Origin: Edaphobacter sp. 12200R-103
GTDB taxonomy: Bacteria; Acidobacteriota; Terriglobia; Terriglobales; Acidobacteriaceae
Assembly: GCF_010093025.1 (NCBI RefSeq)
Contig: NZ_CP048114.1
Location: forward strand, 1,984,001-2,048,000
Reading direction: 5' to 3'
DNA: 64,000 nt
A model generated the notes under the pieces. The model had not been told where the DNA came from, made no database searches, and saw only the letters and a list, made by a program, of their open reading frames with translations. The position numbers and the translations under genes are program-made. Below, in pieces: positions 12,052-29,533 of the stretch (position 1 is its first letter; each line of letters begins with the position of its first letter).

Positions 12052-13227
12052 TCATTGATCTCTAGATATCTCATATAGCAGCTCGCACTGGAGATGATCT
12101 CGCCTGCATGGCCCATGCAGGTAATACTCCTTTTTATCTATCAGCATAAGACCACGGGATTCGTCGATCAACTGCTGAAAATGGCTGGCGGCATCACGCA
12201 TCCCCTGGTAGAGAAAGTATTTTTTGGTTAGATGTCGCACGTGTTCCAAGTACACCATCAATGCATTCTCATCTAGATCCGACATTGCGTGCGCGCTAAA
12301 TACTATATCTGCAAAACATGATGGTATCCTGGGCAACTCAGATAGGGGCATCAATACAATGTCATAATCATCAAGGTCGGAGACGCTCATCGGCGCCTCG
12401 CCATAAAGTAGAATTCTCTTTTCTGGAAAATTTCGAAACAGGTAATAGGCTGCCAGAGCGAGGCTCTCAGGAAGATCAAAGTTCCAATATTTCAACTTCG
12501 GTGAGTCGCGCAACAGATAGTACGCCATAGCCCCATAACCGCCTCCAATCTCGGCAATCAAAGCATCACTCTTCTCGGTGATATCGGTAATTCTCCGAGA
12601 TCCGTAATGCTGATGCTCTGCTCCATTCGCGATGAATACGCCATCCAACACGATTCCAAATGGATTGCCCACATTTGGTCCTCGAAGGTCGCAGAGATCG
12701 TATTCTCCTGATGTAAGATTCCGCCATCGGTCAAGACGCGATAAAGCCTCTACAAGATATGCACTTTTATGAAGGGCCGCTAATGCCCGCGAGGGCGTAG
12801 CTGTAATCAGCAGGTTCTTGCCTACCAGGCCATCGCTGCAGGAGTCACGAAAGAAATTTGCGTACATTCGTTGCAAGGCGGTGATATCGCCCATCGTTAA
12901 AGCCGCGATCACATGCCGAAGACTTGTGCGCTGCAATATCTTCCACCACGCTGTAGGCGTGTAGACTTCCTGGACCGGCGCACACGTAGCTGCTCGGTAG
13001 GCCCTGCAGATTCGGCGCAAGATCTGTTCATCGCATGGACCAGTGTCATCCCGAGCCAATAGTCCTTGCTCAACCAAGGCAAGCTGAAATCGTGCATCGC
13101 CTTTGTAATGCCATAGGCCCTCAAAACCGCGCCGCGCTGCTGTGGCATGCAATCGAAGCAGTAACCCCAGGCCGCGTGCGGCGTGGAGAGGATGACGAAG
13201 GTGGCGCGTCTTCAGCATCTTTGTCAC
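12052..13227 (-). CDS. Putative sugar O-methyltransferase
   Basis: 391 residues. The central block EIGGGYGAMAYYLLRD is a class I SAM-binding loop. With the flanking text (LDGVFIANGAEHQHYGSRR and WNFDLPESLALAAYYL) it matches the putative sugar O-methyltransferase family. It starts at a GTG at 13227 directly after the cytochrome stop; an ATG at 13218 is an alternative. It is the third gene of a leftward operon (outer-membrane protein, cytochrome c, methyltransferase) with junctions of 0-2 bp. It is convergent with the sulfotransferase, with stops almost touching. Probable role: methylation of a surface sugar or of the product of the radical SAM locus; unproven. Confidence 0.75.
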   Translation of the reverse strand: MTKMLKTRHLRHPLHAARGLGLLLRLHATAARRGFEGLWHYKGDARFQLALVEQGLLARDDTGPCDEQILRRICRAYRAATCAPVQEVYTPTAWWKILQRTSLRHVIAALTMGDITALQRMYANFFRDSCSDGLVGKNLLITATPSRALAALHKSAYLVEALSRLDRWRNLTSGEYDLCDLRGPNVGNPFGIVLDGVFIANGAEHQHYGSRRITDITEKSDALIAEIGGGYGAMAYYLLRDSPKLKYWNFDLPESLALAAYYLFRNFPEKRILLYGEAPMSVSDLDDYDIVLMPLSELPRIPSCFADIVFSAHAMSDLDENALMVYLEHVRHLTKKYFLYQGMRDAASHFQQLIDESRGLMLIDKKEYYLHGPCRRDHLQCELLYEISRDQ

Positions 13228-13229: not shown

Positions 13230-13526
13230 CTACGGATTAAAGAACCGCAGGAGAGCTTGCGCATCTCTTTCGCTCAGGTTTGCACGCACACGCATATGTC
13301 GGACAATGCTGCCTGCAATACGCGGCGAGAACCCGTCGGGCGGGTTATGACATCGCGAACAGTTCTGCATAAAAACGCGTTCACCTTCGTTCATACGCAC
13401 AGGCTGTTGCGCCTGCTTCTTCTGCGGTGTCGAAGCTTGAGTTTGCGAAGTCGACGTCGATTGTCCCAATACGACGAAAGGCATGGTGAAAATCCCAGCG
13501 AGAACGATCCATCGGAGCAGATTCAT
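13230..13526 (-). CDS. Small exported cytochrome c
   Basis: 98 residues. Residues 1-~22 are a signal peptide (WIVLAGIFTMPFVVLGQ). A Ser/Thr/Gln-rich linker follows, then NCSRCHNPP, a single CxxCH haem-attachment motif. The region after it (GFSPRIAGSIVRHMRVRANLSERDAQALLRFF) supplies the helix that in small class I cytochromes carries the axial methionine. The mature domain is only about 55 residues, near the minimum for a cytochrome c fold. It overlaps the upstream outer-membrane gene by one base (TAATG). Likely a periplasmic electron carrier. Confidence 0.85.
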   Translation of the reverse strand: MNLLRWIVLAGIFTMPFVVLGQSTSTSQTQASTPQKKQAQQPVRMNEGERVFMQNCSRCHNPPDGFSPRIAGSIVRHMRVRANLSERDAQALLRFFNP

Positions 13527-14593
13527 TACTTCTTTCCCTTCCAGGCTGGGAACAGAAAACGGTAGACAATGCCGGTCTGCCAGATGTTCCTGTTACCTGA
13601 TTCCGAAAATTGTCTTGAATAGCTGGTATTGATTCGCACGTTGTGTGGTAGATGGTAGTCAAGACCGAAGTCAGCTCGCTGTGTATCCTTTGAAGGTAGG
13701 CCATCCGTAGGATCTGGCGCATTTCTGAAAACCTGCTGCAGACGAAAGACGGGCTCAAGCCTCCCAATTGCGCTCTCTGCCCCTCCGAAGCGTGAAAGAC
13801 GGTAATCCGTCTCGACCCAGTAGCCGTGGGCATGCGTCGTATGGGCATACTCCGAGCGCATCTTAAACGCTGTATTGGGAGGTAGCCACCAGATGTGGAA
13901 TCCGACCGCATCCGAATTACTGCCCTGCAACAATCTGCCATAGGACACTCCGACCTCAAGCCTAGGCCTCGGCAGATAAGCATTCACGCGTAAACCGGTT
14001 GACCGTGACGCATTGAACTGCTCATTTGCGCTGCGTGCGGAAAAATATGCGGTGTAGTCGATCGAAACCTTCCCGTTGGAGTATGCATTACCGCGCAGCA
14101 TGCCACCAAGGCCTGCGCCAGTTCCCGTTCCAATAGGAACAATCAGTGGGGCATCCTGAAAATTGCTGATCCAGATGGGCGACAGGCGTTCTGTGTAGGT
14201 TCCAAAGGGGGACAAAAAGCTGCCAGCGACAATAGTCAAATGTGAGGTCGCTAAATAGTTAGCCTGAAGGTATGTAAGAGCTACAAAGTGACTCGTATCG
14301 TATCCCTTACTTCCGTTGGGGAAAAATGCTTCAAGCAGATACGCACGAGATTCCACTTGCAGACGCTTCGTAATGGGTGCCTGGATCAATGGAGAAATTG
14401 CGGGAATATATGTGGTATTGCCGCCATTCGTACTGGTGAAAAAGCCGACACCTCCTGAGATAAGAGGCGTTTCCTGGGCACATGTTGGTCGGCCACATAG
14501 AAGGGCAGCTACCGGAATCGCAAGCAGGCGTCCGGCACGCATAGCTCTGGTTCGCAACGTGTTTTGCTTTTGCGATTTTGCAAAGGACAACAT
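13526..14593 (-). CDS. Outer-membrane beta-barrel protein, porin-like
   Basis: 355 residues with a signal peptide ending around ALLCGRPTCAQ. The rest is a run of amphipathic, aromatic-rich strands with short turns (QVESRAYLLEAFFP, HFVALTYLQANYLATSHLTIVAG, FGLDYHLPHNVRINTSYSRQF) and ends with a strand and basic tail, as expected for a barrel of about 14-16 strands. No specific family is recognised. It is the first gene of the leftward operon with cytochrome c and the sugar methyltransferase, and is divergent from the radical SAM operon (150 bp between), so it may share a control region with it. Function is inferred from shape only. Confidence 0.65.
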   Translation of the reverse strand: MLSFAKSQKQNTLRTRAMRAGRLLAIPVAALLCGRPTCAQETPLISGGVGFFTSTNGGNTTYIPAISPLIQAPITKRLQVESRAYLLEAFFPNGSKGYDTSHFVALTYLQANYLATSHLTIVAGSFLSPFGTYTERLSPIWISNFQDAPLIVPIGTGTGAGLGGMLRGNAYSNGKVSIDYTAYFSARSANEQFNASRSTGLRVNAYLPRPRLEVGVSYGRLLQGSNSDAVGFHIWWLPPNTAFKMRSEYAHTTHAHGYWVETDYRLSRFGGAESAIGRLEPVFRLQQVFRNAPDPTDGLPSKDTQRADFGLDYHLPHNVRINTSYSRQFSESGNRNIWQTGIVYRFLFPAWKGKK

Positions 14594-14743: not shown

Positions 14744-16270
14744 ATGGTCACGGAGAAAACGCGGCGCCAATCGCGGAAGGTCGTCTTCTTCTTCCCTTCC
14801 TTCGCCAGTTCGGAGGCCACCGCGCCTCTAGGCATTCTTGCCGTTTCCACGCCGCTGCTCCGTGCCGGCTACGATATCGTTCTTATCGATTCAACTATTA
14901 CCCCCAATTTCAAACAGCGCGTCCTCGACGAAATCAAGGACGCATTCTGCTTCTGCGTGTCTCTGGTTACAGGGCCGATGATCCGCGAAACCGTGGACAT
15001 CGCCAAGGCGATCAAGGAGTGGGACCACGACTTTCCTATTATTCTTGGCGGCTGGCACCCATCGCTCCTGCCAGGTCAAACGTTGGAAGCTCCTTATATC
15101 GATTACATCGTTCGCGGTCAAGGTGAAGACAGTCTTCTTGAATTAATACGCCATATTGAATCCGGCGCCGCACCAGACTTTATCTCAGGCATAGGCTTCA
15201 AGCGTGACGGCAAGCTTATTTTCACGCAAGAGCGGCCATTACGCCCACTAATAGAGATGCCGCCTAAGGCATACCATCTTGCGGACTTTGACGCTTACGA
15301 GCGCAAGTGCGGCCGCAGATGGGCGATGTATACCTCAAGCCTTGCTTGCCCATTTAACTGCGCTTATTGCACGAATTCCGGCGTGTACGGCCGTAAGTGG
15401 AACGCCCTTCCACCAGAGCAGTTTGTGGAGGAGACTGTTGATCTCAGTCGCCGCTATGCGCTCGATATGATCTGGGTCGTTGACGACAACTTCCTTGTAG
15501 ATATGGACCGCGCCCGCGGCATTGCAGAAGGCCTCGTGCGCGAAAATTCGCACTACACGTGGAGCATACAGGCCACCAGCAATGTTGTCGCACGGCTAAC
15601 ACCACACGATCTACGCATGCTTCGGCGTGCGGGCTTACAGCAAATATGTCAAGGGGTCGATTCCGGCTCTTCGACTGTACTCAAAGCCATGCACAAGGAC
15701 TGGCAGGACTTCGAATCGATCTATGAGAGCGCAGCACGTTGCCTCGAGGCAGGTATTCGCCCTTCTTTCAATATTATTTTTGCGTTTCCTGGCGAAGGAC
15801 GTGCAGAGCGCCGCGAAACCATTGACTTCATGATGAAGGTCTGCCGACGTTATCCAGGTGCAGAGTTCTGGACCAATATCTTTACTCCCTACCCTGGCTC
15901 ACCGATCTTCTCCAGGACAACTGAGCTTGGTATCGATCCGCCGGCATCCCTTGAAGCATGGGCCGACTACTTTCCCCGTTACACCAGGCTTCCCTGGCTC
16001 AATGGCAAAGAACATCGCCGACTCCAGATCACAAGAGACTATCTGCGCCTGGCATTCGATCGTATTCCAATTGGTGCTGATCGGCGTGGCAGGGTGACAC
16101 GTCTTTTGCAGAAGAGCATGTCATTACCAGCACGGTGGCGTCTCGACCACGATCTCTACAATGCGCCCCTAGAGCTATGGGTCAATAACCGCATCAAGAA
16201 ACGCATCGCAGCCAAGCCTGCCGTAGATGCCAAACGACTTGCAAGAACACCGGAGGAGGCCGCGTGCTGA
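14744..16270 (+). CDS. B12-binding radical SAM protein 1
   Basis: 508 residues. Residues ~12-140 form a Rossmann-like cobalamin-binding domain ending in DYIVRGQGEDSLLELI, the usual closing block of this class. The radical SAM domain follows with CPFNCAYC (Cys202, Cys206, Cys209) binding the 4Fe-4S cluster, and GVDSGSSTVLKAM and FAFPGEG further on. The C-terminus has ~90 extra residues. The family includes BchE-type cyclases and cobalamin-dependent methylases acting on unactivated carbon or phosphorus. As in many members, DxHxxG is not evident in the B12 domain. It is the first gene of the eight-gene operon, with the ATG at 14744; the preceding 150 bp hold no convincing precursor peptide. Confidence 0.88.
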   Translation: MVTEKTRRQSRKVVFFFPSFASSEATAPLGILAVSTPLLRAGYDIVLIDSTITPNFKQRVLDEIKDAFCFCVSLVTGPMIRETVDIAKAIKEWDHDFPIILGGWHPSLLPGQTLEAPYIDYIVRGQGEDSLLELIRHIESGAAPDFISGIGFKRDGKLIFTQERPLRPLIEMPPKAYHLADFDAYERKCGRRWAMYTSSLACPFNCAYCTNSGVYGRKWNALPPEQFVEETVDLSRRYALDMIWVVDDNFLVDMDRARGIAEGLVRENSHYTWSIQATSNVVARLTPHDLRMLRRAGLQQICQGVDSGSSTVLKAMHKDWQDFESIYESAARCLEAGIRPSFNIIFAFPGEGRAERRETIDFMMKVCRRYPGAEFWTNIFTPYPGSPIFSRTTELGIDPPASLEAWADYFPRYTRLPWLNGKEHRRLQITRDYLRLAFDRIPIGADRRGRVTRLLQKSMSLPARWRLDHDLYNAPLELWVNNRIKKRIAAKPAVDAKRLARTPEEAAC

Positions 16271-16313
16271 CGGTCTGCTTGAAACCAGCTCGACGACTGC
16301 AAGGAGGTAGTCC

Positions 16314-17792
16314 ATGGTTGACGTCCTGCTGACTCACTCCTACCACCTGAATTTTGATCCCAAACAAGTTCGAAAGATGCAGCCATATCGCCCTCTGGGG
16401 ACGCTTTTTGCGGCATCCACTTTGCGCGAGCACGGATGCAGTGTCACCCTCTTCGACACGATGTTATGTAGCCCGGATGAGTTGGCTCGCGTTCTTGACG
16501 AACAATGTCCAAAGATACTTGTTATTTATGAGGATGACTTTAACTTCCTCACCAAGATGTGCCTGAGTCGCATGCGCGAGGTTGTCTGGAAGTTCGTGGA
16601 TATGGCGAAGCAACGATCGCTTCCAGTCATTATTCATGGCTCCGATGCCAGCGATCACCCTGACCTGTTTCTCAATCGCGGAATTGACTATTTGCTGCTG
16701 GGAGAGGCGGAGACCACACTCGCCGATCTTTGCGATGCAATCCTTATGGGCAAGACACCTGACAATCTCCCCGGGCTTGTTCAACGAAATGATCAAGGAG
16801 AAATTGTCCGGCCGAAGCAGACTCTCTTATCTAATCCATCATGGTCACACCTCTCACCCCCGAACGACCTTATCGATTTTTCACAATATCGGGAAGCTTG
16901 GATCACTGCGCATGACTACTTTTCCGTCAACATGGTAGCCAGCCGCGGTTGCCCATATCGCTGCAATTGGTGCGCTAAGCCTATCTCAGGTGACAAATTT
17001 CAACTTCGTTCCGCAACTGATGTTGCCGAAGAGATGCGTCTGCTTAAGTCGAGCGCCGGCGTTCAACATATCTGGTTCAGCGATGATGTCTTCGCACTCA
17101 GTCATCAGTGGACGCAGGAGTTTGCGCACGAGGTCACAGCGCGTCATGCCGCGTTACCGTTCAAGATCCAAAGCCGAGCTAATCTAATGACAACTCAGGT
17201 TGTCGGTTGGCTAAAAGAGGCAGGCTGTGTCGAAGTCTGGATGGGCGTCGAATCTGGATCACAAAAGATCCTCGATGCCATGGACAAAGGAATCACTATC
17301 TCTCAGATTGAGGAAGCCAGAGAGAGACTGAAGAGTGCTGGCATTCGTGCTTGCTACTTTCTTCAATTTGGCTATCCTGGCGAACATTTGACTGAGCTTC
17401 AACAGACTATCGCGCTTGTACGTAAGACCCGCCCTGACGATATAGGAATTTCATTCTCATATCCCCTGCCCGGCACAGTCTTCTATGAACGCGTTCAGGC
17501 CCAACTGGGCTCGAAGCGTAACTGGGTCGCAAGCGACGATCTCTGCATTCTCTTCCAAGCGGAGTATTCCACAGACTTTTACTATGCCGTTCGCGAGGCT
17601 CTGCATGCAGAGGTTGACAGTTGGACAGATGACACACCGGAGGTTGTATACCGTGTGCAATGTCTCTGGGATGAGGTTCAGAAGCTTGAAACATCCGAAC
17701 GTCAGAAAAACCATCAGAGCGGCGACAACACCCGGAGGTATTCAACTGGTTTTGTGCACACAGAACAGCTGACGAGGACGGCGGAGGCATAG
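16314..17792 (+). CDS. B12-binding radical SAM protein 2
   Basis: 492 residues. The start is fixed by a near-perfect ribosome site, AAGGAGGT, six bases before the ATG. The N-terminal ~150 residues are B12-binding-like and open with HSYHLNFDPKQ...QPYRPLG, a block shared with the next gene. The radical SAM motif is CPYRCNWC (Cys213, Cys217, Cys220). WMGVESGSQKILDAMDKG and FLQFGYPGEH are conserved downstream blocks. It is likely a paralogue of the protein at 17793 from an old tandem duplication. Its stop abuts the next start with no spacer. Substrate unknown; a methyl or alkyl transfer or ring-forming step is plausible from the family. Confidence 0.87.
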   Translation: MVDVLLTHSYHLNFDPKQVRKMQPYRPLGTLFAASTLREHGCSVTLFDTMLCSPDELARVLDEQCPKILVIYEDDFNFLTKMCLSRMREVVWKFVDMAKQRSLPVIIHGSDASDHPDLFLNRGIDYLLLGEAETTLADLCDAILMGKTPDNLPGLVQRNDQGEIVRPKQTLLSNPSWSHLSPPNDLIDFSQYREAWITAHDYFSVNMVASRGCPYRCNWCAKPISGDKFQLRSATDVAEEMRLLKSSAGVQHIWFSDDVFALSHQWTQEFAHEVTARHAALPFKIQSRANLMTTQVVGWLKEAGCVEVWMGVESGSQKILDAMDKGITISQIEEARERLKSAGIRACYFLQFGYPGEHLTELQQTIALVRKTRPDDIGISFSYPLPGTVFYERVQAQLGSKRNWVASDDLCILFQAEYSTDFYYAVREALHAEVDSWTDDTPEVVYRVQCLWDEVQKLETSERQKNHQSGDNTRRYSTGFVHTEQLTRTAEA

Positions 17793-19184
17793 ATGCGCGA
17801 TCTACTTCTTGCTCACGGCTATTTTTTGATGGAAGACCCAAAGGAGCGCGTCATCATGAAACCCTATGCTCCCTTGGGAATCCTCTATCTCTGCTCGCAC
17901 CTCCGCTCCAAAGGCTTCAGAGTCGATGTCTATGACACCACCTTTTCCACGAAGGCAGACCTCCTTCGCTTTTTACAAAGCGAGGAACCCTCCGTGCTCG
18001 GTCTCTACGCAAATCTGATGACGCGCGTCAATGTCGTTGAAATCATCGAGGCCGCGCGACTCTTCGGATGGACTGTCATCGTCGGTGGCCCCGAAGCCGG
18101 CTCCTATTCATTGGAATATCTGCAGGCGGGCGCCAACTTCGTTGTCTTTGGAGAGGGCGAAAACACACTCGAGGAGCTTCTGCTCACAATCAAGAACCGC
18201 GGGAGTGATTACACCTGCATCCGGGGTCTCGCCTATCTTGACGCCCAGGGACAACATCATCAGAACGCTCCACGCGAGCAGATATCGAACCTCGACCTTC
18301 AGCCGTGGCCCGCTCGCGATGCTATCGATTTGCAACGCTATGTAAGCACCTGGCGCGAGCATCATGGCATGGGGTCAGTCAACTTCATAACAGCGCGAGG
18401 CTGCCCCTTTTCCTGCAAGTGGTGCAGCCATGGTGTCTATGGCCAGTCCCATCGCCGTCGCACTCCCGCTAGGGTCGTGGACGAGGTAGAGTGGCTCCTC
18501 GAAACTTATTCCCCTGACATGGTATGGATCTCTGATGATGTCTTCACCATCAATCACGAGTGGATACGCAACTACTACCAGGAGATGCAGCGAAGACAGA
18601 TTCGAATTCCGTTTGAATGTATCTCGCGTGCGGATCGCCTTACGCCGGAGATGATGGATCTGCTTGCGGAGCTCGGATGCTTTCGCATCTGGATCGGTGC
18701 AGAAAGCGGCTCGCAACGCATCCTCGATTCCATGGGACGTGGCGTCAAGCTTGATCAGGTTCATCGCGCTGTGGAGATGTGTCGCGAACGCAAGGTGGAG
18801 AGCGGTATGTTTCTTATGTGGGGCTATGAAGGAGAAGACCTCGAGGATATCGAAGCCACTATCAGTCATGTCTCGAGATCTAAACCGGACATCTTCTTTA
18901 CCACCGTCTCCTACCCTATCAAGGGAACGCCGTACTACAACAAGATCTCGGAAAAACTTATCCAGATTGCGGCCTGGAGTAAGACCTCCGACCGCGAACT
19001 GCGTATACGCGGCAGGCACAGCCGTAACTTTTATGCTCACGCAGATCGCCTTCTTCGAGAGGAGGTCGCTCTCGCACGAGCGATAGAGACGTCCGCAAAT
19101 GCCATCGATATTGCAGCGATGCGGCAAAACATTCATGAATCCCGTTCCGCAATGATGGCTTTGTCGCATGAGGTAGAACAATGA
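17793..19184 (+). CDS. B12-binding radical SAM protein 3
   Basis: 463 residues, ATG directly after the previous TAG. The opening HGYFLMEDPKE...MKPYAPLG parallels protein 2. The cobalamin-type domain ends FVVFGEGENTLEELL. The cluster motif is CPFSCKWC (Cys204, Cys208, Cys211), then VWISDDVFTINHEW and WIGAESGSQRILDSMGRG, again matching protein 2 block for block. It overlaps the following methyltransferase by ATGA, so translation is coupled. Two such similar enzymes in one operon suggest either two chemically similar steps on one substrate or a heterodimer. Confidence 0.87.
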   Translation: MRDLLLAHGYFLMEDPKERVIMKPYAPLGILYLCSHLRSKGFRVDVYDTTFSTKADLLRFLQSEEPSVLGLYANLMTRVNVVEIIEAARLFGWTVIVGGPEAGSYSLEYLQAGANFVVFGEGENTLEELLLTIKNRGSDYTCIRGLAYLDAQGQHHQNAPREQISNLDLQPWPARDAIDLQRYVSTWREHHGMGSVNFITARGCPFSCKWCSHGVYGQSHRRRTPARVVDEVEWLLETYSPDMVWISDDVFTINHEWIRNYYQEMQRRQIRIPFECISRADRLTPEMMDLLAELGCFRIWIGAESGSQRILDSMGRGVKLDQVHRAVEMCRERKVESGMFLMWGYEGEDLEDIEATISHVSRSKPDIFFTTVSYPIKGTPYYNKISEKLIQIAAWSKTSDRELRIRGRHSRNFYAHADRLLREEVALARAIETSANAIDIAAMRQNIHESRSAMMALSHEVEQ

Positions 19185-19999
19185 CCTTAGTGACTCCTCA
19201 AAGAACGGCGGCCGCAGCGGCATTCGACCATCTCGCAGTTGATTATGATGCGGTCTTTACTCATTCTTCCATTGGGAGTGCACAGCGGGCTGCTGTCTGG
19301 GAATGCGCGAAGAGCATCTTCACTCCTCACAGCCGCCTACTGGAGCTGAACTGCGGCACAGGAGAGGATGCGATCCACTTTGCAGAGCAAGGCTTCAACA
19401 TAACGTCCTGCGACATATCACCTGCCATGATCTCGCAGGCACGAAGAAAAGCCCTACAGACTCACACAAACGATCACATTCGGTTTTATGTTCAGGCAAA
19501 CGAGAAGATTGGCGACCTGCCAGAGAAACATCCGTTCAGTGGGTGCTTTTCCAATTTTTCAGGGCTGAACTGTGTTAAAGACCTCAATGGCCTGTCATCG
19601 TCGCTCGCTCCAATGCTACTTCCCGGTTCGCCCCTTTTGTTCTGCTTTTCGACGCGATATTGCCTCTGGGAGATCGCTTGGCATCTGCTTCGCGCGGATC
19701 TGTCTCGCTGCAGCCGCCGCTGGAGCGGATACCACGAGACGACACTCGGCGACACCATCCTTTCAGTCTATTATCCAACCTGCAGAGAAATCAGTCGCAG
19801 CTTTGCCCAAGACTTCCGATTAATCGCCGTCTACGGCATTGGCATCACGGTCCCTCCATCTTATGTAGAGCCTTGGATTGCAAAACGCCCAGGCCTGCTG
19901 CAAACTCTTCAAAGAATTGATACAGCCATCTATCGCCTGCCGATGATTAATCGACTCGGAGATCACATGTTGTTGCATCTCGAGAGGTTGCACTCATAA
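19181..19999 (+). CDS. Class I SAM-dependent methyltransferase
   Basis: 272 residues. LLELNCGTGEDAIHFAEQG is motif I of class I methyltransferases, followed by ITSCDISPAMISQAR carrying the acidic ribose-binding residue. The fold matches UbiE/BioC-like small-molecule methyltransferases. It starts within the ATGA overlap with radical SAM 3 and ends in a TAATG overlap with the next gene. Substrate unknown. Because it is embedded between radical SAM genes, it most likely methylates O or N on the same compound that the B12 enzymes modify. Confidence 0.85.
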   Translation: MTLVTPQRTAAAAAFDHLAVDYDAVFTHSSIGSAQRAAVWECAKSIFTPHSRLLELNCGTGEDAIHFAEQGFNITSCDISPAMISQARRKALQTHTNDHIRFYVQANEKIGDLPEKHPFSGCFSNFSGLNCVKDLNGLSSSLAPMLLPGSPLLFCFSTRYCLWEIAWHLLRADLSRCSRRWSGYHETTLGDTILSVYYPTCREISRSFAQDFRLIAVYGIGITVPPSYVEPWIAKRPGLLQTLQRIDTAIYRLPMINRLGDHMLLHLERLHS

Positions 20000-20979
20000 T
20001 GGCCCAAGACACTCTCATCTCTTCACAGTATGCCGCCCTTAACGGGTTCAGGCTTCGCTGTCCTCGCTGTGCTGCACCATTCGAATGGTCCGAGAAACAG
20101 GAAGAGAGCCTCTTATGTGTTGAATGCCATTTCCCCATGTCCCAGAAGGATAAGATCTGGCGGGCTCTTCCCATTGAACGTGCCACCTACTATGCACGAT
20201 TTATCAAGGACTACGAAGCAATTCGTACGGCAGAAGGCAGAGGAAGCGCCGACAGCAGCTACTATCTACGGCTTCCTTTTGCGACTCATAGCGACCACAA
20301 TGCCGAGCAATGGAAAATCCGCGCTGCGACATATCGGTACTTCAAACAGATACTTCTTCCGCAGATCAGCTCGAATTCACAGGGAGCCGGAAACATTCTC
20401 GACATTGGCGCCGGAAACGGCTGGCTCAGTTATCGGCTTTCTCAGGCCGGAATGATCGTCGTGGCTATCGATTTACTTACAAATACTTTAGACGGCCTGG
20501 GTGCCGCAAGCCATTACGACACCTACCTCAAGTGTCCCTTCCTTCGAATTCAAGCAGAGAGCGATCGCCTTCCTCTTTGCGACGCCCAGTTTGATGCTGT
20601 CATCTTTAATGCATCTTTCCACTACGCCGAAAATTACCTCCGGACACTGCACGAGGCTCTGCGCTGTCTTCGCCCTGGAGGTATGGTCATCATCGCCGAT
20701 TCCCCCTGGTATGCGCATGAAGACAGCGGATGGAAGATGCTTGCTGAGAGGCGATCACAGTTCTTCAATCGATTTGGCATATTCTCGGACTCCATCTGCA
20801 GCCAGGAGTTTCTTACAGATGAGCGCCTGGACCAGTTGGCCCACAATCTGGGGATTCGCTGGGAACGCCACACTCCTTTCTACGGCTTACGTTGGTATCT
20901 TCGCCCGTTGATTGCGAAGCTCAAAGGGAAACGAGAGCCATCAACATTTCGAATCTATGTTGCAAAAAAGCCTGCATGA
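19999..20979 (+). CDS. Methyltransferase with N-terminal zinc-ribbon
   Basis: 326 residues. Residues ~15-45 carry two CxxC pairs (CPRC and CVEC) with a spacer of about 20, a probable structural zinc site like the Trm112-type or RlmA-type N-terminal ribbon. The class I methyltransferase core follows: ILDIGAGNGWLSYRL, then VAIDLL, and FDAVIFNASFHYAEN. It overlaps both neighbours by one to four bases. Ribbon-plus-methyltransferase proteins sometimes act on polymers, but here the context is a small biosynthetic operon. Substrate unknown. Confidence 0.83.
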   Translation: MAQDTLISSQYAALNGFRLRCPRCAAPFEWSEKQEESLLCVECHFPMSQKDKIWRALPIERATYYARFIKDYEAIRTAEGRGSADSSYYLRLPFATHSDHNAEQWKIRAATYRYFKQILLPQISSNSQGAGNILDIGAGNGWLSYRLSQAGMIVVAIDLLTNTLDGLGAASHYDTYLKCPFLRIQAESDRLPLCDAQFDAVIFNASFHYAENYLRTLHEALRCLRPGGMVIIADSPWYAHEDSGWKMLAERRSQFFNRFGIFSDSICSQEFLTDERLDQLAHNLGIRWERHTPFYGLRWYLRPLIAKLKGKREPSTFRIYVAKKPA

Positions 20980-22439
20980 TCATTCTCTTCCATCCTCGTG
21001 CAACGAAGCCCCGCAACTGTCGTATGCCACTTGCCATACTCGCACTTGCAGCGGTTCTTGAGGGACGCGAGACCTATGCCATCGTTGATGGCAATCTGGA
21101 CAATACACCACTTGACTCCATCCTCGACTTGATCGATCACCACCAGGTTGAACTACTAGGTGTCTCTGTCATGCCAGGTCCGCAGATGGTGGCCGGAATG
21201 GAGGTCTCGCGAGAGATCCGCCGTCTACGCCCTAATATTCCTATTGTATGGGGCGGCTATTTTCCCTCCATCTATCCCGATGCCGCCCTCAACGCAAAAT
21301 ACGTGGATTATGTGGTTCGCGGACAAGGGGAAGAGACACTACTGGAGTTGATCGAATCCCTGCGAGGGAAACGCAATCTCTCCACCATCCGTGGCCTCTC
21401 TTACAAGGATGCATTTGGTCTTCATCGCAACAATCCGGAACGCACAATGAAGGGACCGGATAGCTTTCCGTGGGTGCCATATCACCGTATACCGGTCAAA
21501 CAATATCTGCGTCCATCTTTCTTCGGAAAGCGTACCGCTGTACATCATGCCAGTGTTGGCTGTCCGTTTAACTGCTCTTTTTGCGGCGTGCATGCCGCAT
21601 ACGGACGTGACGAGAAGATGGAGTCGCCCGAACGAACTTTCGAGATACTCAAACATCTCGTTTCCCTGTACGGTGCCGATTCTGTCCAGTTTTACGATAT
21701 GAATTTCTTTCTTCGTGAAGACCACGCCCGCAAGCTGTGTGATCTGATAGCACCGCTTCAACTTCGATGGTGGTGCGAGGCTCGGGTCGACATCATGTCC
21801 CGATACTCAGACGAGACCATGGCTTCCATCGCACGTGCTGGTTGCGCCATGATCTTCTTCGGAGCTGAATCAGGTGCCGATTGGGTCCTCAAAGACATGC
21901 AGAAAGGCATCACCACCGCTCAAACTCTCACCATGGCACGACGTACGCGGCAGTTTGGCATCATTCCCGAGTTCTCCTTCGTCATCGGCAACCCCAAAGA
22001 TCCAGAGACGGACACACGTGAAACCCTCGCCTTCATTCGAAAGATCAAGAGGATCAACCCTGACAGCGAGATCATCATTCAGCACTATACGCCGACACCT
22101 CAACCCGGTCAGATGTATGGTGAGGTCGATGACAAGATCACATTTCCTTCCACACCTGCCGAATGGGCAAGCAAACGATGGCTCGACTTCACGCTACGGA
22201 TCGATACGGGGGCTCCGTGGCTGCGGAGCAGGACCAAGAGGCTTATCGATAACTTCGAGCTAGTCGTTGCTTCACGCTGGCCGACTGTGCAGGATATTCG
22301 TGCGCCGCGATGGAGCCGTTTTTTGCTCAAAGCTCTAAGCGCATGGCGATATAAGCTTCACGTCTACGACCATCCCGTCGAGCTGCAATGGGCACATAAC
22401 TTTATTAACTTGCGTAAGCCCAAAAGGGAAAGCCTTTGA
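20976..22439 (+). CDS. B12-binding radical SAM protein 4
   Basis: 487 residues from the ATG at 20976, which overlaps the previous stop as ATGA; a longer frame upstream has no family match. The N-terminal domain ends DYVVRGQGEETLLELIESL, the B12-type block. The cluster motif is CPFNCSFC (Cys196, Cys200, Cys203). FFGAESGADWVLKDMQKG and FSFVIGNPKDPETDTRETL follow. It resembles protein 1 more than proteins 2 and 3 in its opening and in its ~80-residue C-terminal extension (PWLRSRTKRLIDNFELV, HPVELQWAHNFI). The stop overlaps the next start (TTGA). Confidence 0.87.
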   Translation: MIILFHPRATKPRNCRMPLAILALAAVLEGRETYAIVDGNLDNTPLDSILDLIDHHQVELLGVSVMPGPQMVAGMEVSREIRRLRPNIPIVWGGYFPSIYPDAALNAKYVDYVVRGQGEETLLELIESLRGKRNLSTIRGLSYKDAFGLHRNNPERTMKGPDSFPWVPYHRIPVKQYLRPSFFGKRTAVHHASVGCPFNCSFCGVHAAYGRDEKMESPERTFEILKHLVSLYGADSVQFYDMNFFLREDHARKLCDLIAPLQLRWWCEARVDIMSRYSDETMASIARAGCAMIFFGAESGADWVLKDMQKGITTAQTLTMARRTRQFGIIPEFSFVIGNPKDPETDTRETLAFIRKIKRINPDSEIIIQHYTPTPQPGQMYGEVDDKITFPSTPAEWASKRWLDFTLRIDTGAPWLRSRTKRLIDNFELVVASRWPTVQDIRAPRWSRFLLKALSAWRYKLHVYDHPVELQWAHNFINLRKPKRESL

Positions 22440-24376
22440 AAGCTCCAACGAACAGTACGGCGCAGCTGGATAACAGTGCCGCCTTTGCGGCGTGGGCTGA
22501 AGTCTACGATACGCAATTGAACCCCATGTTGGCTCTTGAAGAGAGATATCTCAACTGCGTCCTGCCTTCCGTTGATGGCAAGGACGTGCTTGATGCCGGC
22601 TGTGGCACTGGGCGTTGGCTTCGACGACTAGCCAATATCGGTTCCCCGCAGTCGCTACACGGTATAGATAGCTCTCCGGAGATGCTTACCTCAGCACGAC
22701 GGGCTTGCACAAGAGAGACATCACTCATTCTGGCGCAACTACCAACTGTGCCGCTTCTCTCCGCATCGATCGATTTGGCGCTCTGTTCATTTGCACTCAG
22801 CTACATCTCTGATCTCGAATCTCTTGCCAGCCAGTTTCGTCGCATTCTTCGAGAGGATGGCGATCTCTTAATAACAGATCTCCATCCCGATACAGCAATG
22901 ACTCTGGGCTGGCAACGTAGTTTTCGCTCTTCCGAGATAAGCTTTCACCTGCAATTCGAACCACGCCTCATCGAAGCCATATTGCACGCGTTCGACCAAC
23001 AAGACTTCCAGACAGTCGGCCTCTATCAACCTTCCTTCGGTGAACCCGAATACTCTATCTTCGCCAGTCAGGGCAAACAAGCCTCTTATAACGAGGCTAA
23101 CGGACAACCCGCAATCTACATCCTCCACCTTAGGCCGAAAACTACTAGGCCCGGCGACCGAATTACATTGGCGAACGCGAACTTTGTCCTCGGTGGTCAG
23201 GAGGTTGGAACAGGCAATATCACAATTCACAATGACGCTGTAGCGTCGGTTATCTCAAACTATCCACAACATCGCGCTCACAATGATCTCGATCTATCTG
23301 GATATACTCTCTTTCCTGGCCTCATCAATGCGCACGATCATCTGGAGTTCGGCCTGTTTCCCCGCCTCGGCTCTCCTCCATATCAAAACGCCACTGAATG
23401 GGCTCGCGACATTCACAATCATTGTCGTCCAATTATCGAAAAGCACACCAGAATACCGCGCGACATTCGTCTATGGTGGGGGGCTCTCCGCAATCTACTA
23501 TGTGGGGCAACCACGGTCTGTCACCACAATCCGGCTTCCGCTGTCTTTTCCGACCCTCAGTTCCCTGTTCGAGTCCTCACCGAATTCGACTGGGCTCACT
23601 CGCTGACGTTCTCCACCAACATCGGTTCCATGCACACCCAGTCCGCCCTGATAAAGCCTTTTATTCTTCACGCCTGTGAAGGAATCGATTCGACCGCCAA
23701 GAGTGAGTTCACACAACTGCTCGACATGAATGTGCTCGATGAGCGGACAGTGCTCGTGCATGGCCTGGCGATGGACGTCGACGAGATTATCAGGTTGAAT
23801 CAATGCGGCGCATCATTGATCAGCTGCCCTTCGTCCAATCAATTTCTTTTCTCTCAGACTCCCTCAATCGAACAGCTATCAGCCGTAGACCGACTCGCCA
23901 TCGGTAGCGATTCATCGCTGACTGCGGATGGAGACCTGTTGGATGAGATCAGATTCTGTCATACCCACCTCCAGCTCTCCTCCGGTAAACTCTTCAACTT
24001 TGCCATGCATGCTCCAGCTATAGTTCTTCAGCTTAAAGGCTATGCAGGATGCCTCATGCCAGGAGGCCCTGCGGACCTCTTCGCAGTTCGATCTTGCTCA
24101 CAGCTACCGGCACAACAATTGGTTTCCCTCAGCTGGCGTGACATTGAACTCGTCATCATAGCAGGCACGATACGCCTCGCATCCAATGAGATGATGCATC
24201 GAATTCCGGCTGAACTGACCAATAGCCTGTCACCCCTGTTGATAGACGGAGTCACACGCTGGATCGCAGCCCCCGTCACATCACTTTTCGAAGCTGCCGC
24301 TGGCGTTCTGGGCACAGACCGAGTCTGCCTCAACGGTCGACTCATAGCTATTCCAGAGGCACAGCATGTCCACTAA
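22436..24376 (+). CDS. Methyltransferase-amidohydrolase fusion protein
   Basis: 646 residues starting at a TTG whose last two bases lie in the previous stop; GGGAAAG precedes it. Residues ~10-215 are a class I methyltransferase: DVLDAGCGTGRWLRRL and LHGIDSSPEMLTSAR. From ~235 onward is an amidohydrolase of the TRZ/ATZ deaminase-hydrolase type: YTLFPGLINAHDHLEF gives the HxH metal pair, CHHNPAS and LVHGLAMDVDEI further histidines, and LAIGSDSSLTADGDLLDEI the catalytic aspartate. Both halves look complete, so this is a true bifunctional protein, not a readthrough. The hydrolase half implies hydrolysis or deamination of a small ring or amide. Such a pairing is unusual in my experience. Confidence 0.85.
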   Translation: MKAPTNSTAQLDNSAAFAAWAEVYDTQLNPMLALEERYLNCVLPSVDGKDVLDAGCGTGRWLRRLANIGSPQSLHGIDSSPEMLTSARRACTRETSLILAQLPTVPLLSASIDLALCSFALSYISDLESLASQFRRILREDGDLLITDLHPDTAMTLGWQRSFRSSEISFHLQFEPRLIEAILHAFDQQDFQTVGLYQPSFGEPEYSIFASQGKQASYNEANGQPAIYILHLRPKTTRPGDRITLANANFVLGGQEVGTGNITIHNDAVASVISNYPQHRAHNDLDLSGYTLFPGLINAHDHLEFGLFPRLGSPPYQNATEWARDIHNHCRPIIEKHTRIPRDIRLWWGALRNLLCGATTVCHHNPASAVFSDPQFPVRVLTEFDWAHSLTFSTNIGSMHTQSALIKPFILHACEGIDSTAKSEFTQLLDMNVLDERTVLVHGLAMDVDEIIRLNQCGASLISCPSSNQFLFSQTPSIEQLSAVDRLAIGSDSSLTADGDLLDEIRFCHTHLQLSSGKLFNFAMHAPAIVLQLKGYAGCLMPGGPADLFAVRSCSQLPAQQLVSLSWRDIELVIIAGTIRLASNEMMHRIPAELTNSLSPLLIDGVTRWIAAPVTSLFEAAAGVLGTDRVCLNGRLIAIPEAQHVH

Positions 24377-24428
24377 TCTGGTTTTCTTTATTTCAGGCGC
24401 GGTATAACGCACCTCAACGAGATGGTCG

Positions 24429-25469
24429 ATGTCCACTGAGATTATCGCGATCAAGTCCCCGATAACCGCGAACGATATCCCCGGCGAAATCCGATCTCTG
24501 CCGATCCTCATCCTTAACGTGCATGAGAATTGCAATTGCCGATGCATAATGTGCGATATCTGGAAACGCCCTGCCGGAAAAGAACTCGAGCTTGACCAGG
24601 TTCGCAAATATCAGAAGGATCTACAGAAACTTGGCGTGCAACAGGTCGTATTCACGGGTGGCGAGCCATTGCTTCATTCACACTTTGAAGATCTTTGTAC
24701 GTTCTTCCGCGGATGCTCTACACGGATAACTCTCCTCAGCACGGGACTCTTGCTTAAGAAGCGCGCCCAGATTATTGCCGACCATGTCGATGAGGTCATC
24801 GTCTCGCTCGATGGTCCTGAAGAAACACACAACCGAATCCGGAACATCCCTCACGCCTTCCAACTCATACATGAAGGCATCGCGGCTATTAGGCGTCTAC
24901 GGCCCAATATATCCATTCATGCACGGAGCACCGTGCAGTGCCGTAACTTCGCTCAGCTGCGACAAACTGTTGCGGCCGCAAAATCTCTCGAATGCACCTC
25001 TATATCGTTTTTGGCAGTCGATACTTCGTCACAAGCATTCAACCGCGAGTTGATCTGGCCCCAAGAGACTCAACAACAGATCGGCCTCACGTCCGCTCAG
25101 ATCTCGACCCTCGAAGAAGAGATCGAGCTCCTTATCCTGCATAATGCCGTCGATCTTCAGAATGGATACATCGTTGAAGGCCCTGAAAAGCTACGCCGCA
25201 TCGCGCGTTACTTTCGCAGTCGTCTGGGTGAACTTCCCTCTATCGCGCCGCCCTGTAACGCTCCCTGGGTCTCTGCCGTTCTCGAGGTGGATGGCTCTCT
25301 TCGGCCCTGCTTCTTTCATCGTATCGTCGCAGAGACACGGGAACAGTCGCTCATAGAAGCACTCAACTCTAGCGCAGCTATTCAATTTCGCCGGACACTC
25401 AATATCGCCGAAGATCGCACCTGTCAAAATTGCGTTTGCTCACTCAACTACCGCGTGCGTGAAACCTGA
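24429..25469 (+). CDS. Radical SAM protein 5 (SPASM/twitch-like C-terminus)
   Basis: 346 residues, ATG at 24429, 52 bp after the fusion gene. It has no B12 domain. CNCRCIMC places the cluster cysteines at 35, 39 and 42 (Cys37 is extra), followed by VVFTGGEPLLH, the classical GGEP block binding SAM. The C-terminus has further cysteines (APPCNAPW, RPCFFHR, CQNCVC), consistent with an auxiliary cluster of SPASM or twitch type. Such enzymes often modify peptides or act as small-molecule epimerases or dehydrogenases. It ends the operon and overlaps the convergent nucleotidyltransferase gene by 30 bp. Confidence 0.87.
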   Translation: MSTEIIAIKSPITANDIPGEIRSLPILILNVHENCNCRCIMCDIWKRPAGKELELDQVRKYQKDLQKLGVQQVVFTGGEPLLHSHFEDLCTFFRGCSTRITLLSTGLLLKKRAQIIADHVDEVIVSLDGPEETHNRIRNIPHAFQLIHEGIAAIRRLRPNISIHARSTVQCRNFAQLRQTVAAAKSLECTSISFLAVDTSSQAFNRELIWPQETQQQIGLTSAQISTLEEEIELLILHNAVDLQNGYIVEGPEKLRRIARYFRSRLGELPSIAPPCNAPWVSAVLEVDGSLRPCFFHRIVAETREQSLIEALNSSAAIQFRRTLNIAEDRTCQNCVCSLNYRVRET

Positions 25470-26738
25470 ACCACGCAGGCGCCACATCATTCCGTGGAAT
25501 ATCGTCCGACAATGCAATCGCGAATAGGCGATGGATCTTCTGCAGCAATAGGCCAGCAAGCGAAGAATACTTTTCCCTCTCGTCTGGCGGATCTTCCGAT
25601 CATTAAGCACAACAAATTCAAGATCGGGATCGGGCAGGCGGTGGGGGAAAAATGTCCTGCGAATAATTGTCTTCCTGAGATGGCGATGGCTCTGGCTCAA
25701 CAGGCTCCAGTGTAGCCATACGGCATCTTTATTCTCACGAAACGGCAGCTCCATGGGCACATGTCCGAAGTTTTCAAGCCATGACCTCTGTGCTCTCGGC
25801 AACCCGTCAAGCACCTCGCGGGCAACGTCCGGCATATCGCATCCAAAGCATCGCGCTGCCAACTTGAATGCAATCACTTCTTTCGCACGCAGATCTTCGC
25901 TATGCTGCGACTGCCACCTGCTCCAGAACGCTTCATCATGCATCTTCCTGTCGAGAAACTCCGCCATCTCATAAACATGATGAATTACCGTGTCATAAAC
26001 CAGAAGGTTCCTCAGGATATGCATCGACTGGTGGCCCAGAAGATCAATATCCTGCAGTACAGGAACCTTCATGCCTTCAATACAACGCGTGACTCTGCGC
26101 TTGAAGAAACCTCGAATCTCATCTTCATGCTGTAGTAACGTAACTTTTTCATTCCAAAGACTATGGTGCAGTTCAATGGAGAGCGGCATCTCAGGATCGA
26201 ATGCATTACCGCGCCAGGTCCATTGGCCCAGCCGGTACAGGGTAGGACTATGGTCCGCTCTGCGAAAATCCACTGTTGTATTCGGCTGATATCCGGCCGA
26301 CACAAGCGCCGCTTGTGCAACGGCAATAGCTTCAGGGCCGCAGTACATATCGATGTCTGACTGTTGCCGCAGCCACGGAGACTCCACGAACTCCGGCGCA
26401 AGTGTAAATCCCTTGATCACCACGTACTCGATTCCCGCCTTTGCCAGACAGGCGTCTGCCTCCAGATAGGTGTCCTTTACGCGACAAAAACGTTCCTGGT
26501 TATCTTTCAGGTTGCTATCAAGCCTGCTTCTAACCCATTCGGGCAATTTCAGCGATCTCTTCTTTGCGAGTGGCAGCGTCAGGTGCGCCAGATCGCTAAA
26601 ATGCAGCAAATTCTCCCATTGCTGATCACTAAGGGCCATCATATTTTCCACTGGATGCTTACGATGAAGTGCCGCGTATAGAGCGACTGCTTCAGAGGGA
26701 ATCACCGGCCGTTTTAAAATATCTACCTTATCCTGCAC
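25440..26738 (-). CDS. Nucleotidyltransferase-fold protein (PF14907 type)
   Basis: 432 residues. YVVIKGFTLAPEFVESP...RQQSDIDMYCGPE is the signature of the uncharacterised nucleotidyltransferase family PF14907, with the DID acidic pair for metal binding. Members commonly sit in peptide-modification clusters, often with PqqD-like and HprK-like proteins. It overlaps the upstream HprK-like gene by 16 bp, so it is the last gene of a four-gene leftward operon, and its 3' end overlaps radical SAM 5. No PqqD homologue was found nearby. The reaction is unknown; transfer of a nucleotidyl group is inferred from the fold. Confidence 0.8.
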   Translation of the reverse strand: MQDKVDILKRPVIPSEAVALYAALHRKHPVENMMALSDQQWENLLHFSDLAHLTLPLAKKRSLKLPEWVRSRLDSNLKDNQERFCRVKDTYLEADACLAKAGIEYVVIKGFTLAPEFVESPWLRQQSDIDMYCGPEAIAVAQAALVSAGYQPNTTVDFRRADHSPTLYRLGQWTWRGNAFDPEMPLSIELHHSLWNEKVTLLQHEDEIRGFFKRRVTRCIEGMKVPVLQDIDLLGHQSMHILRNLLVYDTVIHHVYEMAEFLDRKMHDEAFWSRWQSQHSEDLRAKEVIAFKLAARCFGCDMPDVAREVLDGLPRAQRSWLENFGHVPMELPFRENKDAVWLHWSLLSQSHRHLRKTIIRRTFFPHRLPDPDLEFVVLNDRKIRQTRGKSILRLLAYCCRRSIAYSRLHCRTIFHGMMWRLRGSGFTHAVVE

Positions 26739-27715
26739 TTGCTCCCCTCTATTGTTTCCGACAGAAGTTGAACAGCCGAATCAAGGTCTGTATATCTCAT
26801 CTCGAACATCTGAGCACCGAGCAGCCGTTCCAACGCTTCATCTGTCGGCGATCCATGGGGGGCAGGCACCAGAAGAAACTTTTTAAAGTAATTTTTGACT
26901 TGGTCTCTCGCGATTGCGTGGAGCCCGGGGGCCAGTTCTCCACTGCGATTCAAAAACAAGATAAACCGGATGTCTGTGAAATCTGCCTGTCTAATGCCTG
27001 GCAGTTCGTTCGTGCCCACCTCGATCGAAGGTTTCCCCGCAACGCGTGGCGTATTCTCTCTTCCGCTCAACTCCGTAAAAAGCCCCGCAGAGGCATCTCG
27101 AAACCTTATCTGGTGGCAGTTCCCTACGACCCTGGCGTGTTCTCCTTCCAGTAGCAGATAACTGGCGTCGTCCGAAACATAGCTCCAACCTGACCGCGCA
27201 CAGGCATAAGCCAGTGTCGTCTTGCCAGCACCGGACTCACCACACAGCAACACACCTGTTCCGTTCCACGCAATAGACGCTCCATGCAGAGCAACCGCGC
27301 GCAGGGTCGATATCATCGATAAGGCAATTGCCTCCAGCACGTAATAGCGAAGGTGAAGCTCCATCTTCAGGAACATCTCGGCCAGCATCCCGCGTGCAAC
27401 CCCCTGTCCGAGATCAGCCACAACAACGCTCTTTTCATCGAACGCGACTGTCAGCAGTTCACCATCTATTTGCACTGAGGGTGCTTTTATCAAGCTCTTC
27501 AACTCTCCCTCACCAAACTTAAGCTCGATGACAAGTGGCTCACTGGAACTCATAGGAGTGAATTTGCTCCAGCTTCTCCGAGCCATCTCCAGCACCTCGG
27601 CTCGATTCGTCACAATACGAACTGGGAAACCGAGCGGAAAGAAGAGTTCGCTGCAATAGCCTGAGGACAGCTTCCTCCGGTCCACCGTCGCATTGCACTC
27701 ACTTGGCATATTCAT
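26723..27715 (-). CDS. HprK-like serine kinase
   Basis: 330 residues. The C-terminal part has a P-loop, LLCGESGAGKTTLAYACAR, followed by SYVSDDASYLLLEG, the arrangement of the HPr kinase/phosphorylase catalytic domain. The N-terminal ~140 residues differ from true HprK. Relatives of this shape accompany lasso-peptide and other peptide-modification loci, where they are thought to phosphorylate a peptide or small substrate. It overlaps the upstream cytochrome c gene by 17 bp and the downstream nucleotidyltransferase gene by 16 bp. No HPr or PTS gene is near, so a carbon-control role is unlikely. Confidence 0.8.
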   Translation of the reverse strand: MNMPSECNATVDRRKLSSGYCSELFFPLGFPVRIVTNRAEVLEMARRSWSKFTPMSSSEPLVIELKFGEGELKSLIKAPSVQIDGELLTVAFDEKSVVVADLGQGVARGMLAEMFLKMELHLRYYVLEAIALSMISTLRAVALHGASIAWNGTGVLLCGESGAGKTTLAYACARSGWSYVSDDASYLLLEGEHARVVGNCHQIRFRDASAGLFTELSGRENTPRVAGKPSIEVGTNELPGIRQADFTDIRFILFLNRSGELAPGLHAIARDQVKNYFKKFLLVPAPHGSPTDEALERLLGAQMFEMRYTDLDSAVQLLSETIEGSKCRIR

Positions 27716-28190
27716 CTTCCGAATAAGCTCGCGGCTGTCCCAGACTTCCGGCTGGGGGTAAATGCCTCAGATACACTACGATCGACCACATATCCCGATC
27801 GCTCAAAATTCCCTTGGAGGCCGGCATGCCCGAAGGGCGAATACCGTTCTCGATGATCCATTTCAGCTGCCCGTCGTCATAGCTCTGCACCATACTGGAA
27901 TTCAGCGGCGGTATTGCAGGTGACATGCTAGCTGCGAAGGGTACTCCAGTATTTTGTCCATCTCTCCCATGACATACAACGCAGTATGAGGAAAACATCT
28001 TCTTCCCTTGTTCTACTGTCTCAGCCGTACTGTGGATTGGATTGATATCCTTTTTTCCTCCAACAGTCAGATGATGTTTTGTCCACTGAATGAACGTCGT
28101 CTCCAGTTTGCCTGCAGGAGCAACGCGACATCCCTGCAGCGCAAAGCAGGTCATTCCCAGAGCAGCGCAAATCATGAGACGGCAGGCCAA
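27699..28190 (-). CDS. Lipoprotein cytochrome c
   Basis: 163 residues from a TTG at 28190; an ATG at 28175 is a possible alternative. The start region is a lipoprotein signal (MTCFALQGC), so the protein is probably lipid-anchored in the periplasm. CVVCHGRDGQNTG is the CxxCH haem site. SGMPASKGILSDRDMWSIVVYLRHL supplies the likely axial methionine and C-terminal helix of a class I cytochrome c. It follows the cupredoxin gene by four bases and overlaps the HprK-like gene, tying periplasmic electron transfer to a cytoplasmic kinase in one operon. Confidence 0.87.
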   Translation of the reverse strand: MACRLMICAALGMTCFALQGCRVAPAGKLETTFIQWTKHHLTVGGKKDINPIHSTAETVEQGKKMFSSYCVVCHGRDGQNTGVPFAASMSPAIPPLNSSMVQSYDDGQLKWIIENGIRPSGMPASKGILSDRDMWSIVVYLRHLPPAGSLGQPRAYSEDEYAK

Positions 28191-28551: not shown

Positions 28552-28842
28552 CTTCACCCCCGTGAACTCGAAAAACCTTCCCGCAGTACGACAAAATCGC
28601 ACCGCGATCCTGGATACGAGGTGAGTATAAGTAGTTCCTTTTGTCTGGGTTGTCACTACCCCGTCTTGTGCTTGTCAAACTACTCTTTATCATTGGCATC
28701 ACAACGTTCGGATCAGCCATTCCCCCGCGGCTGCACGAAGACGCATTTGTCTGGATTTTGTCATTGGATTGTATTTTTGTGATATTTCCGTAACATCTGT
28801 GTCGCGTTCTTGACACACTTACTATGAGGAGGAGGCCGTAAC

Positions 28843-29532: not shown

Positions 29533-29533
29533 G

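Follow-up and report, generated by a model that had tools for sequence, protein, structure and literature searches.

An eight-gene operon of Edaphobacter sp. 12200R-103 belongs to a set whose gene order recurs in many genera, and its genes are therefore a real conserved unit, beyond chance. This operon lies at positions 14744-25469 of the 64,000-nucleotide stretch analyzed here (hereafter the window), which is part of a 4.55 Mb single-contig genome (G000:C1:1984001-2048000). We favor, tentatively and with a confidence that stays short of even, an undescribed acidobacterial pathway, patchy in its distribution and conserved in its gene order, whose product would be linked to a surface or secreted glycan and would contain a methylated N-heterocyclic unit, perhaps derived from guanosine triphosphate (GTP). 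The strongest supported part of this proposal is a conserved multi-radical pathway associated with a kinase and a nucleotidyltransferase and, in many relatives, with genes for surface glycans. That the pathway processes an amino N-heterocycle is a weaker claim, and weakest of all is a GTP origin of this heterocycle in the organism that carries the window, the GTP link being seen in relatives only. To our knowledge, few described pathways put five or six radical S-adenosylmethionine (SAM) enzymes on one product.

The Operon and Its Enzymes

The eight open reading frames (ORFs), A to H, are carried by the plus strand with ends that overlap or nearly abut. Gaps are found only between A and B (43 bp) and between G and H (52 bp), the other junctions reading TAG/ATG, ATGA, TAATG, ATGA, and TTGA. 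A (14744-16270, 508 aa, CPFNCAYC), which opens the set in related loci, C (17793-19184, 463 aa, CPFSCKWC), and F (20976-22439, 487 aa, CPFNCSFC) are B12-binding radical SAM proteins; for F, the ATG at 20976 was judged the best start, over the TTG at 20892 of the mechanical ORF. B (16314-17792, 492 aa, CPYRCNWC) is a cobalamin-type radical SAM protein present in all three classes of the set, and H (24429-25469, 346 aa, CNCRCIMC) is a radical SAM/SPASM protein. D (19181-19999, 272 aa) is a class I SAM methyltransferase, and E (19999-20979, 326 aa) a SAM methyltransferase in which an N-terminal CxxC...CxxC stretch was recognized by eye. Finally, G (22436-24376, 646 aa) is a methyltransferase (residues ~1-238) fused to a deaminase-type amidohydrolase (residues ~239-646).

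These assignments rely on Pfam, completed by structural models for B and G. Radical_SAM passes its cut-off in all five radical proteins (A, B, C, F, and H); H also has SPASM, G has Amidohydro_1 (residues 417-579), and methyltransferase domains were assigned to D, to E, and to residues ~51-146 of G. For the B12-binding domain, A, C, and F exceed the cut-off and B falls short of it (26.4 versus 32.1 bits), but the fold predicted for B (predicted local distance difference test score, pLDDT, 79.4) matches full-length cobalamin radical SAM enzymes, with TsrM, MgmA, AprD4, OxsB, TokK, and CysS as top folds at 15-20% identity. The first-pass annotation of this DNA, which had described eight coupled genes with five radical SAM proteins (four B12-binding with CxxxCxxC, the fifth SPASM-like), three methyltransferase domains, and an amidohydrolase, is thus borne out. 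Among the copies scoring above threshold in related loci, some of which overlap or duplicate one another, CxxxCxxC is kept in all (A 47/47, B 66/66, C 43/43, F 54/54, H 56/56, and 26/26 for A', a sixth radical SAM protein described below).

Inside the operon, neither the ORF list nor Pfam reveals a nonribosomal peptide synthetase, polyketide synthase, or precursor gene, in agreement with the absence of a scaffold gene noted at first pass. In the window, Rfam at the gathering threshold gave no riboswitch and only one RNA gene, a tRNA-Ala (CGC) at 47943-48018. Scans for promoters (7 observed, 12.2 expected) and terminators (12 versus 13.1) gave no signal. No named system with these genes was known to the first-pass annotation, and we find none. 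Indeed, among the best 25 NCBIfam families listed per protein, A to H stay below every cut-off, including those of BchE, HpnJ, HpnR, PhpK, rSAM_ladder_B12, ApyD, BzaD, and AprD4, and a known pathway identifiable by these models was rejected on this ground. The published literature searched, which covers few subscription papers, contains no description of the gene set, and the main text of an omics paper on Granulicella sp. WH15 (PMC7074687) contains neither "radical SAM" nor "amidohydrolase".

The same family scores bear on the modification of membrane lipids, of hopanoid, ladderane, or iso-diabolic acid type. Similarity to the HpnJ, HpnR, and rSAM_ladder_B12 models exists at the superfamily level, but the scores (~69-117 bits) fall well under the cut-offs (360-650 bits), no lipid synthesis gene was recognized in the conserved set, and the neighborhood is of the glycan type, all of which makes this explanation very improbable.

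Conservation and Distribution of the Gene Set

A search with G returned 56 loci from named genomes, mapped with a mechanical ORF picker and profiles built here, a procedure that undercounts genes on short or frameshifted contigs. The closest G among them, at 70%, comes from Acidobacteriaceae bacterium dw_441. Counting nine parts (A, B, C, D, E, F, H, and the methyltransferase and amidohydrolase of G), at least three are present in 54 of the 56 loci and all nine in 23, in 22 of which order and strand are the same, D being moved in L051. Many of the other 33 loci are short contigs, some belong to other classes, and some differ truly. All nine parts are also found in eight more congeneric loci (L089-L096). 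Taxonomically, the loci are distributed over Acidobacteriaceae, Bryobacterales/Solibacteraceae, and further acidobacteria, with partial sets in Ignavibacteriota, Chloroflexota, and Elusimicrobiota. Two loci from two other acidobacterial families (L087 and L088) have only relatives of F-C or E-A-F-C, with F at ~39% identity; these genes adjoin glycosyltransferase-like genes and are perhaps half of the pathway alone.

At the genus level, F, H, and full-length G occur in an identical 20 of 48 congeneric genomes, the G match of G059 being interrupted by one in-frame stop. B is present in 28 of the 48, namely these 20 and eight more (G001, G003, G016, G019, G028, G030, G048, and G058), which match well only the amidohydrolase half of G. 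Across the phylum, 35 of 396 genomes and 15 of 209 genera have B with an E-value of 1e-100 or better. Beyond, the scoring of 8000 candidates gave at least 6224 public protein clusters that reach E 1e-60 with the amidohydrolase profile, some of them maybe outside such sets. The set is thus widespread and present in cultivated strains, such as Edaphobacter lichenicola for the full form and, probably, Granulicella sp. WH15 for the reduced form described below, and its patchy presence and differing flanks suggest that transfer or loss shaped its distribution. A lack of joint conservation would have spoken against the dedicated pathway with several radical steps proposed at first pass; the neighborhood search showed the contrary, and the conservation of the set as a unit supports that pathway.

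Variants of the Set

A sixth radical SAM gene, A', of which 26 copies were scored, is present in many loci and generally sits between A and B. It was not found anywhere in the window's genome, where only A and F answer. The two domains of G are encoded by one ORF in 28 pairs and by two ORFs in 29 (two of these being duplicates), so that the window's G joins partners that are separate elsewhere.

Another variant is a reduced set, D-B-E-amidohydrolase, found in 11 loci (L046, L048, L050, and L077-L084). It is accompanied in all 11 by an NTP_transf_5 nucleotidyltransferase, an HPr-kinase homologue, and a glycosyltransferase of GT1/GT28 type, and a GTP cyclohydrolase II gene lies between D and B in 10 of the 11. 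This enzyme family was found in all 16 genomes searched; of the eight genomes with the reduced set, seven carry a copy within it, and G016 does not. The set-linked copies keep the zinc cysteines and EGRGIGL, and nine of ten keep (L/M)TNNPxK, the tenth having SNNPDK. Moreover, in the full-set genome G025 (Edaphobacter lichenicola M8US30, L022) and its near kin G041 and G032, GTP cyclohydrolase II lies ~2.4 kb from A, with a GT87 membrane glycosyltransferase between. A tree of B (49 rows) unites the reduced-set rows, the window, L022, and L024 in a single group with 99/98 support.

In Granulicella mallensis X5P3, the set is divided over two loci, one with B, E, the amidohydrolase, and H, the other with A, C, D, F, and the methyltransferase of G (L047 and L073). 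A mirror-tree analysis hints at two co-varying halves that match this split (A, C, F, and the G methyltransferase; B, E, the amidohydrolase, H, and the nucleotidyltransferase), but it is only a hint, as common ancestry raises every value and the sets of pairs are not identical. Score thresholds removed fragments from the motif count and from the mirror-tree, and both the latter and the B tree exclude L085 and L086 (duplicates of L039 and L038) and L090, L091, L092, L095, and L096 (separate congeneric genomes).

The Amidohydrolase Domain

The model of the amidohydrolase, a confident one (pLDDT 93.5), matches deaminase folds at 12-22% identity. The metal ligands and the catalytic glutamate of the amidohydrolase barrel are present, and the HxH/H/E/H/D residues are invariant. 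Judging from this model, the domain is probably of the N-heterocycle deaminase type, a shared fold that does not by itself show any substrate.

One explanation would place this domain off the pathway, where it would clear S-adenosylhomocysteine (SAH) or 5'-deoxyadenosine produced by the eight SAM-using domains, the true substrate then being unrelated to nucleobases. Its best VIA match is TM0936, a 5'-methylthioadenosine (MTA)/SAH deaminase, its top Foldseek match is an adenosine deaminase homologue, it is fused to a methyltransferase, and no protein of the window's genome passes the cut-off for 5'-deoxyadenosine deaminases. However, the domain itself scores 28.6 bits in that family (NF005557) versus a cut-off of 522, it is retained in the reduced set with its single radical SAM enzyme and two methyltransferases, and its aligned positions vary where the ribose-binding glutamate of MTA/SAH deaminases would presumably lie. 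We consider such a clean-up role unlikely.

Neighboring Genes and a Possible Glycan Link

At first pass, the flanking genes had been left outside the set. The set is not closed: a nucleotidyltransferase, an HPr-kinase homologue, cytochrome and cupredoxin genes, and probable outer-membrane genes recur in its flanks, joined in related loci by GT87, Wza/Wzz, and GTP cyclohydrolase II. The neighboring genes were analyzed with Pfam on samples, and their remaining names were given by eye.

The NTP_transf_5 nucleotidyltransferase (PF14907; 25440-26738, minus strand) is convergent with H and overlaps its end. It is the single PF14907 copy found in this genome, and a copy lies within ~14 kb of the set in all 10 set-bearing genomes tested; among set-less genomes, G033 has none and G039 has other copies. 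The next gene, on the same strand, encodes an HPr-kinase homologue (26723-27715; Pfam E 2.1e-7, 31.1 bits), whose family retains a Walker-A-like CGxSGAGK stretch. Further glycan-type genes of the window are limited to a sulfotransferase (11074-12051, plus strand) and a putative sugar O-methyltransferase (12052-13227, minus strand), relatives of which recur at some related loci. Elsewhere the association is richer: GT87 stands beside sets of all three classes, including six of the 11 reduced-set loci, and export genes of the Wza/Wzz type are found with many of the reduced sets and several of the full ones. In other phyla, apparent flippases, glycosyltransferases, and a different nucleotidyltransferase surround the sets by eye, with Pfam support for a flippase in L071, GT87 in L070, and a weak nucleotidyltransferase match in L074. 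The GT87 proteins of L097 (3306-5405) and L047 (12324-14492) show a WD40-like beta-propeller stretch near their end, that of L112 being below cut-off, and a cytochrome P450-like gene adjoins the Bryobacterales-type sets L061, L062, L064, L067, L069, L072, and L075 (Pfam for the L075 protein, profile for the others).

The genes being kept together and often beside surface-sugar genes, they probably make a heavily modified compound in or with the cell coat. At first pass, the substrate was suggested to be a primary metabolite or a lipid, or to be encoded elsewhere. The recurring flanking genes speak for a glycan-linked product, perhaps from GTP, more than for a lipid.

The same neighborhood is what could be expected if the sugars of an exopolysaccharide were decorated directly, the radical SAM enzymes and methyltransferases C- or O-methylating or deoxygenating nucleotide- or lipid-linked sugars and the amidohydrolase removing an N-acyl group. 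This is conceivable, if rather doubtful. Besides the recurrent glycan genes, it is consistent with the resemblance of B to AprD4, a radical SAM dehydratase solved with paromamine, and with the nearby sugar O-methyltransferase family gene. On the other hand, no nucleotide-sugar enzyme is among the nameable clusters common to at least three loci, of which samples were analyzed with Pfam, the amidohydrolase suits N-heterocycle deaminases, with N-acetylglucosamine-6-phosphate deacetylases ranking far lower by profile, and GTP cyclohydrolase II would have no obvious role.

The flanks were also considered as a source of a substrate peptide. H and the cobalamin enzymes could mature a ribosomal peptide whose precursor is encoded remotely, followed by phosphoglycosylation as in pseudomycoidin. 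H has a SPASM domain and several superfamily relatives mature peptides; moreover, an HPr-kinase homologue, a nucleotidyltransferase, and a sulfotransferase also occur in lasso clusters (PMC8498205). However, in 119 flanks of up to 1.5 kb, a search restricted to linked precursors gave no small ORF (20-120 aa) that was convincingly shared: of the families listed, the 18 most widespread are encoded on the opposite strand from D or GTP cyclohydrolase II or come from close kin. The lasso B2 protease (PF13471) is absent from the window's genome and, although present in six of the 12 genomes searched, is never near the set. A ribosomally synthesized, lasso-type pathway was rejected on these two grounds, and a ribosomal peptide with a remote precursor appears improbable.

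The remaining neighbors are envelope and electron-transfer genes. Beyond the HPr-kinase homologue, at higher coordinates and also on the minus strand, are two recurrent neighbors, a cytochrome c gene (27699-28190; Pfam and neighborhood map) and a COX2-like cupredoxin gene (28195-28656) with a CuA-like CxxxCxxxHxxM stretch, seen by eye. A response regulator, a histidine kinase, a probable outer-membrane protein, and a plastocyanin-like protein, all named by eye, occupy 28843-33632 on the plus strand; the outer-membrane and plastocyanin-like genes come directly after H in L039, L040, L042, and L052. Upstream of the operon, a recurrent minus-strand pair (13230-14593) consists of a small CxxCH protein (13230-13526) and a probable outer-membrane barrel without Pfam match (13526-14593). 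The copper-protein-like and cytochrome c genes (28195-28656, 27699-28190, 32778-33632, and 13230-13526), called by eye from CxxxCxxxHxxM, CxxHxxM, and CxxCH stretches, recur in both classes, and may have an envelope electron-transfer role beside a glycan cluster. We can imagine, as a long shot, that the GTP-derived, repeatedly C- and N-methylated and phosphoglycosylated heterocycle is an extracellular redox or copper-binding cofactor served by these recurrent cytochromes c, CuA-like, plastocyanin-like, and outer-membrane proteins. If true, five to six radical enzymes would produce a new class of extracellular cofactor.

A Proposed Pathway

For the glycan-linked heterocycle that we tentatively favor, we infer the substrate, the order of the steps, the chemistry of each enzyme, and the product as follows. 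The pathway would start from a nucleotide-derived amino N-heterocycle, made in the reduced set from GTP by the dedicated GTP cyclohydrolase II and, in the window's organism, perhaps supplied by general metabolism. The amidohydrolase domain of G would deaminate it; the cobalamin radical SAM enzymes B, A, C, and F could carry out C-methylation or ring modification, D, E, and the N-terminal domain of G N- or O-methylation, and H one further change. The HPr-kinase homologue would then phosphorylate the heterocycle, the NTP_transf_5 protein and glycosyltransferases would attach a sugar, and the polysaccharide machinery would ensure export.

Several observations weigh against this proposal. The fold of the amidohydrolase is silent on the substrate. 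The window locus has no GTP cyclohydrolase II, both copies of this genome being more than 0.6 Mb away, and, as the reduced-set loci are all from Acidobacteriaceae and the three class I genomes with a nearby cyclohydrolase are near kin, the GTP link represents few independent events. The window's HPr-kinase homologue scores just under the Pfam cut-off (33.3 bits), and this gene, the nucleotidyltransferase, and the export genes are not seen at every class I locus, many of these loci being short. GT87 was not found in five of the 11 reduced-set loci nor in the 64-kb window, and Wza/Wzz was not found in the 31 kb of the window scanned (5001-36000). The outer-membrane barrel at 13526-14593 is present in all 28 set-bearing genomes, often far from the set, and in nine of 20 set-less genomes; it is hence not set-specific. 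Finally, D and F are adjacent without E in nine loci (L034, L041, L043, L044, L067, L070, L071, L072, and L073) and L058 has no A, so that the set does not require all of its enzymes.

The reduced form, with one radical enzyme, two methyltransferases, and one deaminase-type enzyme, makes the chemistry directly testable. If the proposal is true, soil Acidobacteria would be coated or surrounded by a novel modified heterocycle.

Comparison with Known Systems

The hydrolytic deaminases acting on MTA/SAH, adenosine, isocytosine, or triazine, of the COG0402 type, share with the amidohydrolase of the set the fold and the invariant HxH/H/E/H/D; the latter differs by its low identity (12-22%) and by being fused to, or encoded beside, a methyltransferase. 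Likewise, TsrM, MgmA, TokK, CysS, OxsB, and AprD4 combine B12-binding and radical SAM domains with CxxxCxxC, and B models onto most of their length, but identity is only 15-20% and the set brings together four to five such proteins and H in one operon.

At the level of whole pathways, GTP cyclohydrolase II acts in pseudoiodinine and toxoflavin-type pathways (PMC9911603). The reduced set and the three class I genomes resemble these in combining a dedicated GTP cyclohydrolase II with methyltransferases and a deaminase-type enzyme. In contrast, the set has radical SAM enzymes, an amidohydrolase instead of a RibD-type deaminase, and a glycan neighborhood, and the window locus is without such a cyclohydrolase. 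In the lasso peptide pseudomycoidin, phosphoglycosylation is performed by an HPr-kinase/nucleotidyltransferase pair, as reported in PMC8498205. The paeninodin and pseudomycoidin clusters share this pair and sometimes a sulfotransferase with our loci, whereas no precursor and no B2 protease were found near the set. Lastly, oxetanocin and albucidin involve OxsB-type cobalamin radical SAM enzymes acting on nucleotides (PMC7074753). Unlike the set, these pathways have two or three genes, without comparable methyltransferases; they nonetheless set a precedent, in that cobalamin radical SAM chemistry is applied there to a substrate of nucleotide type.

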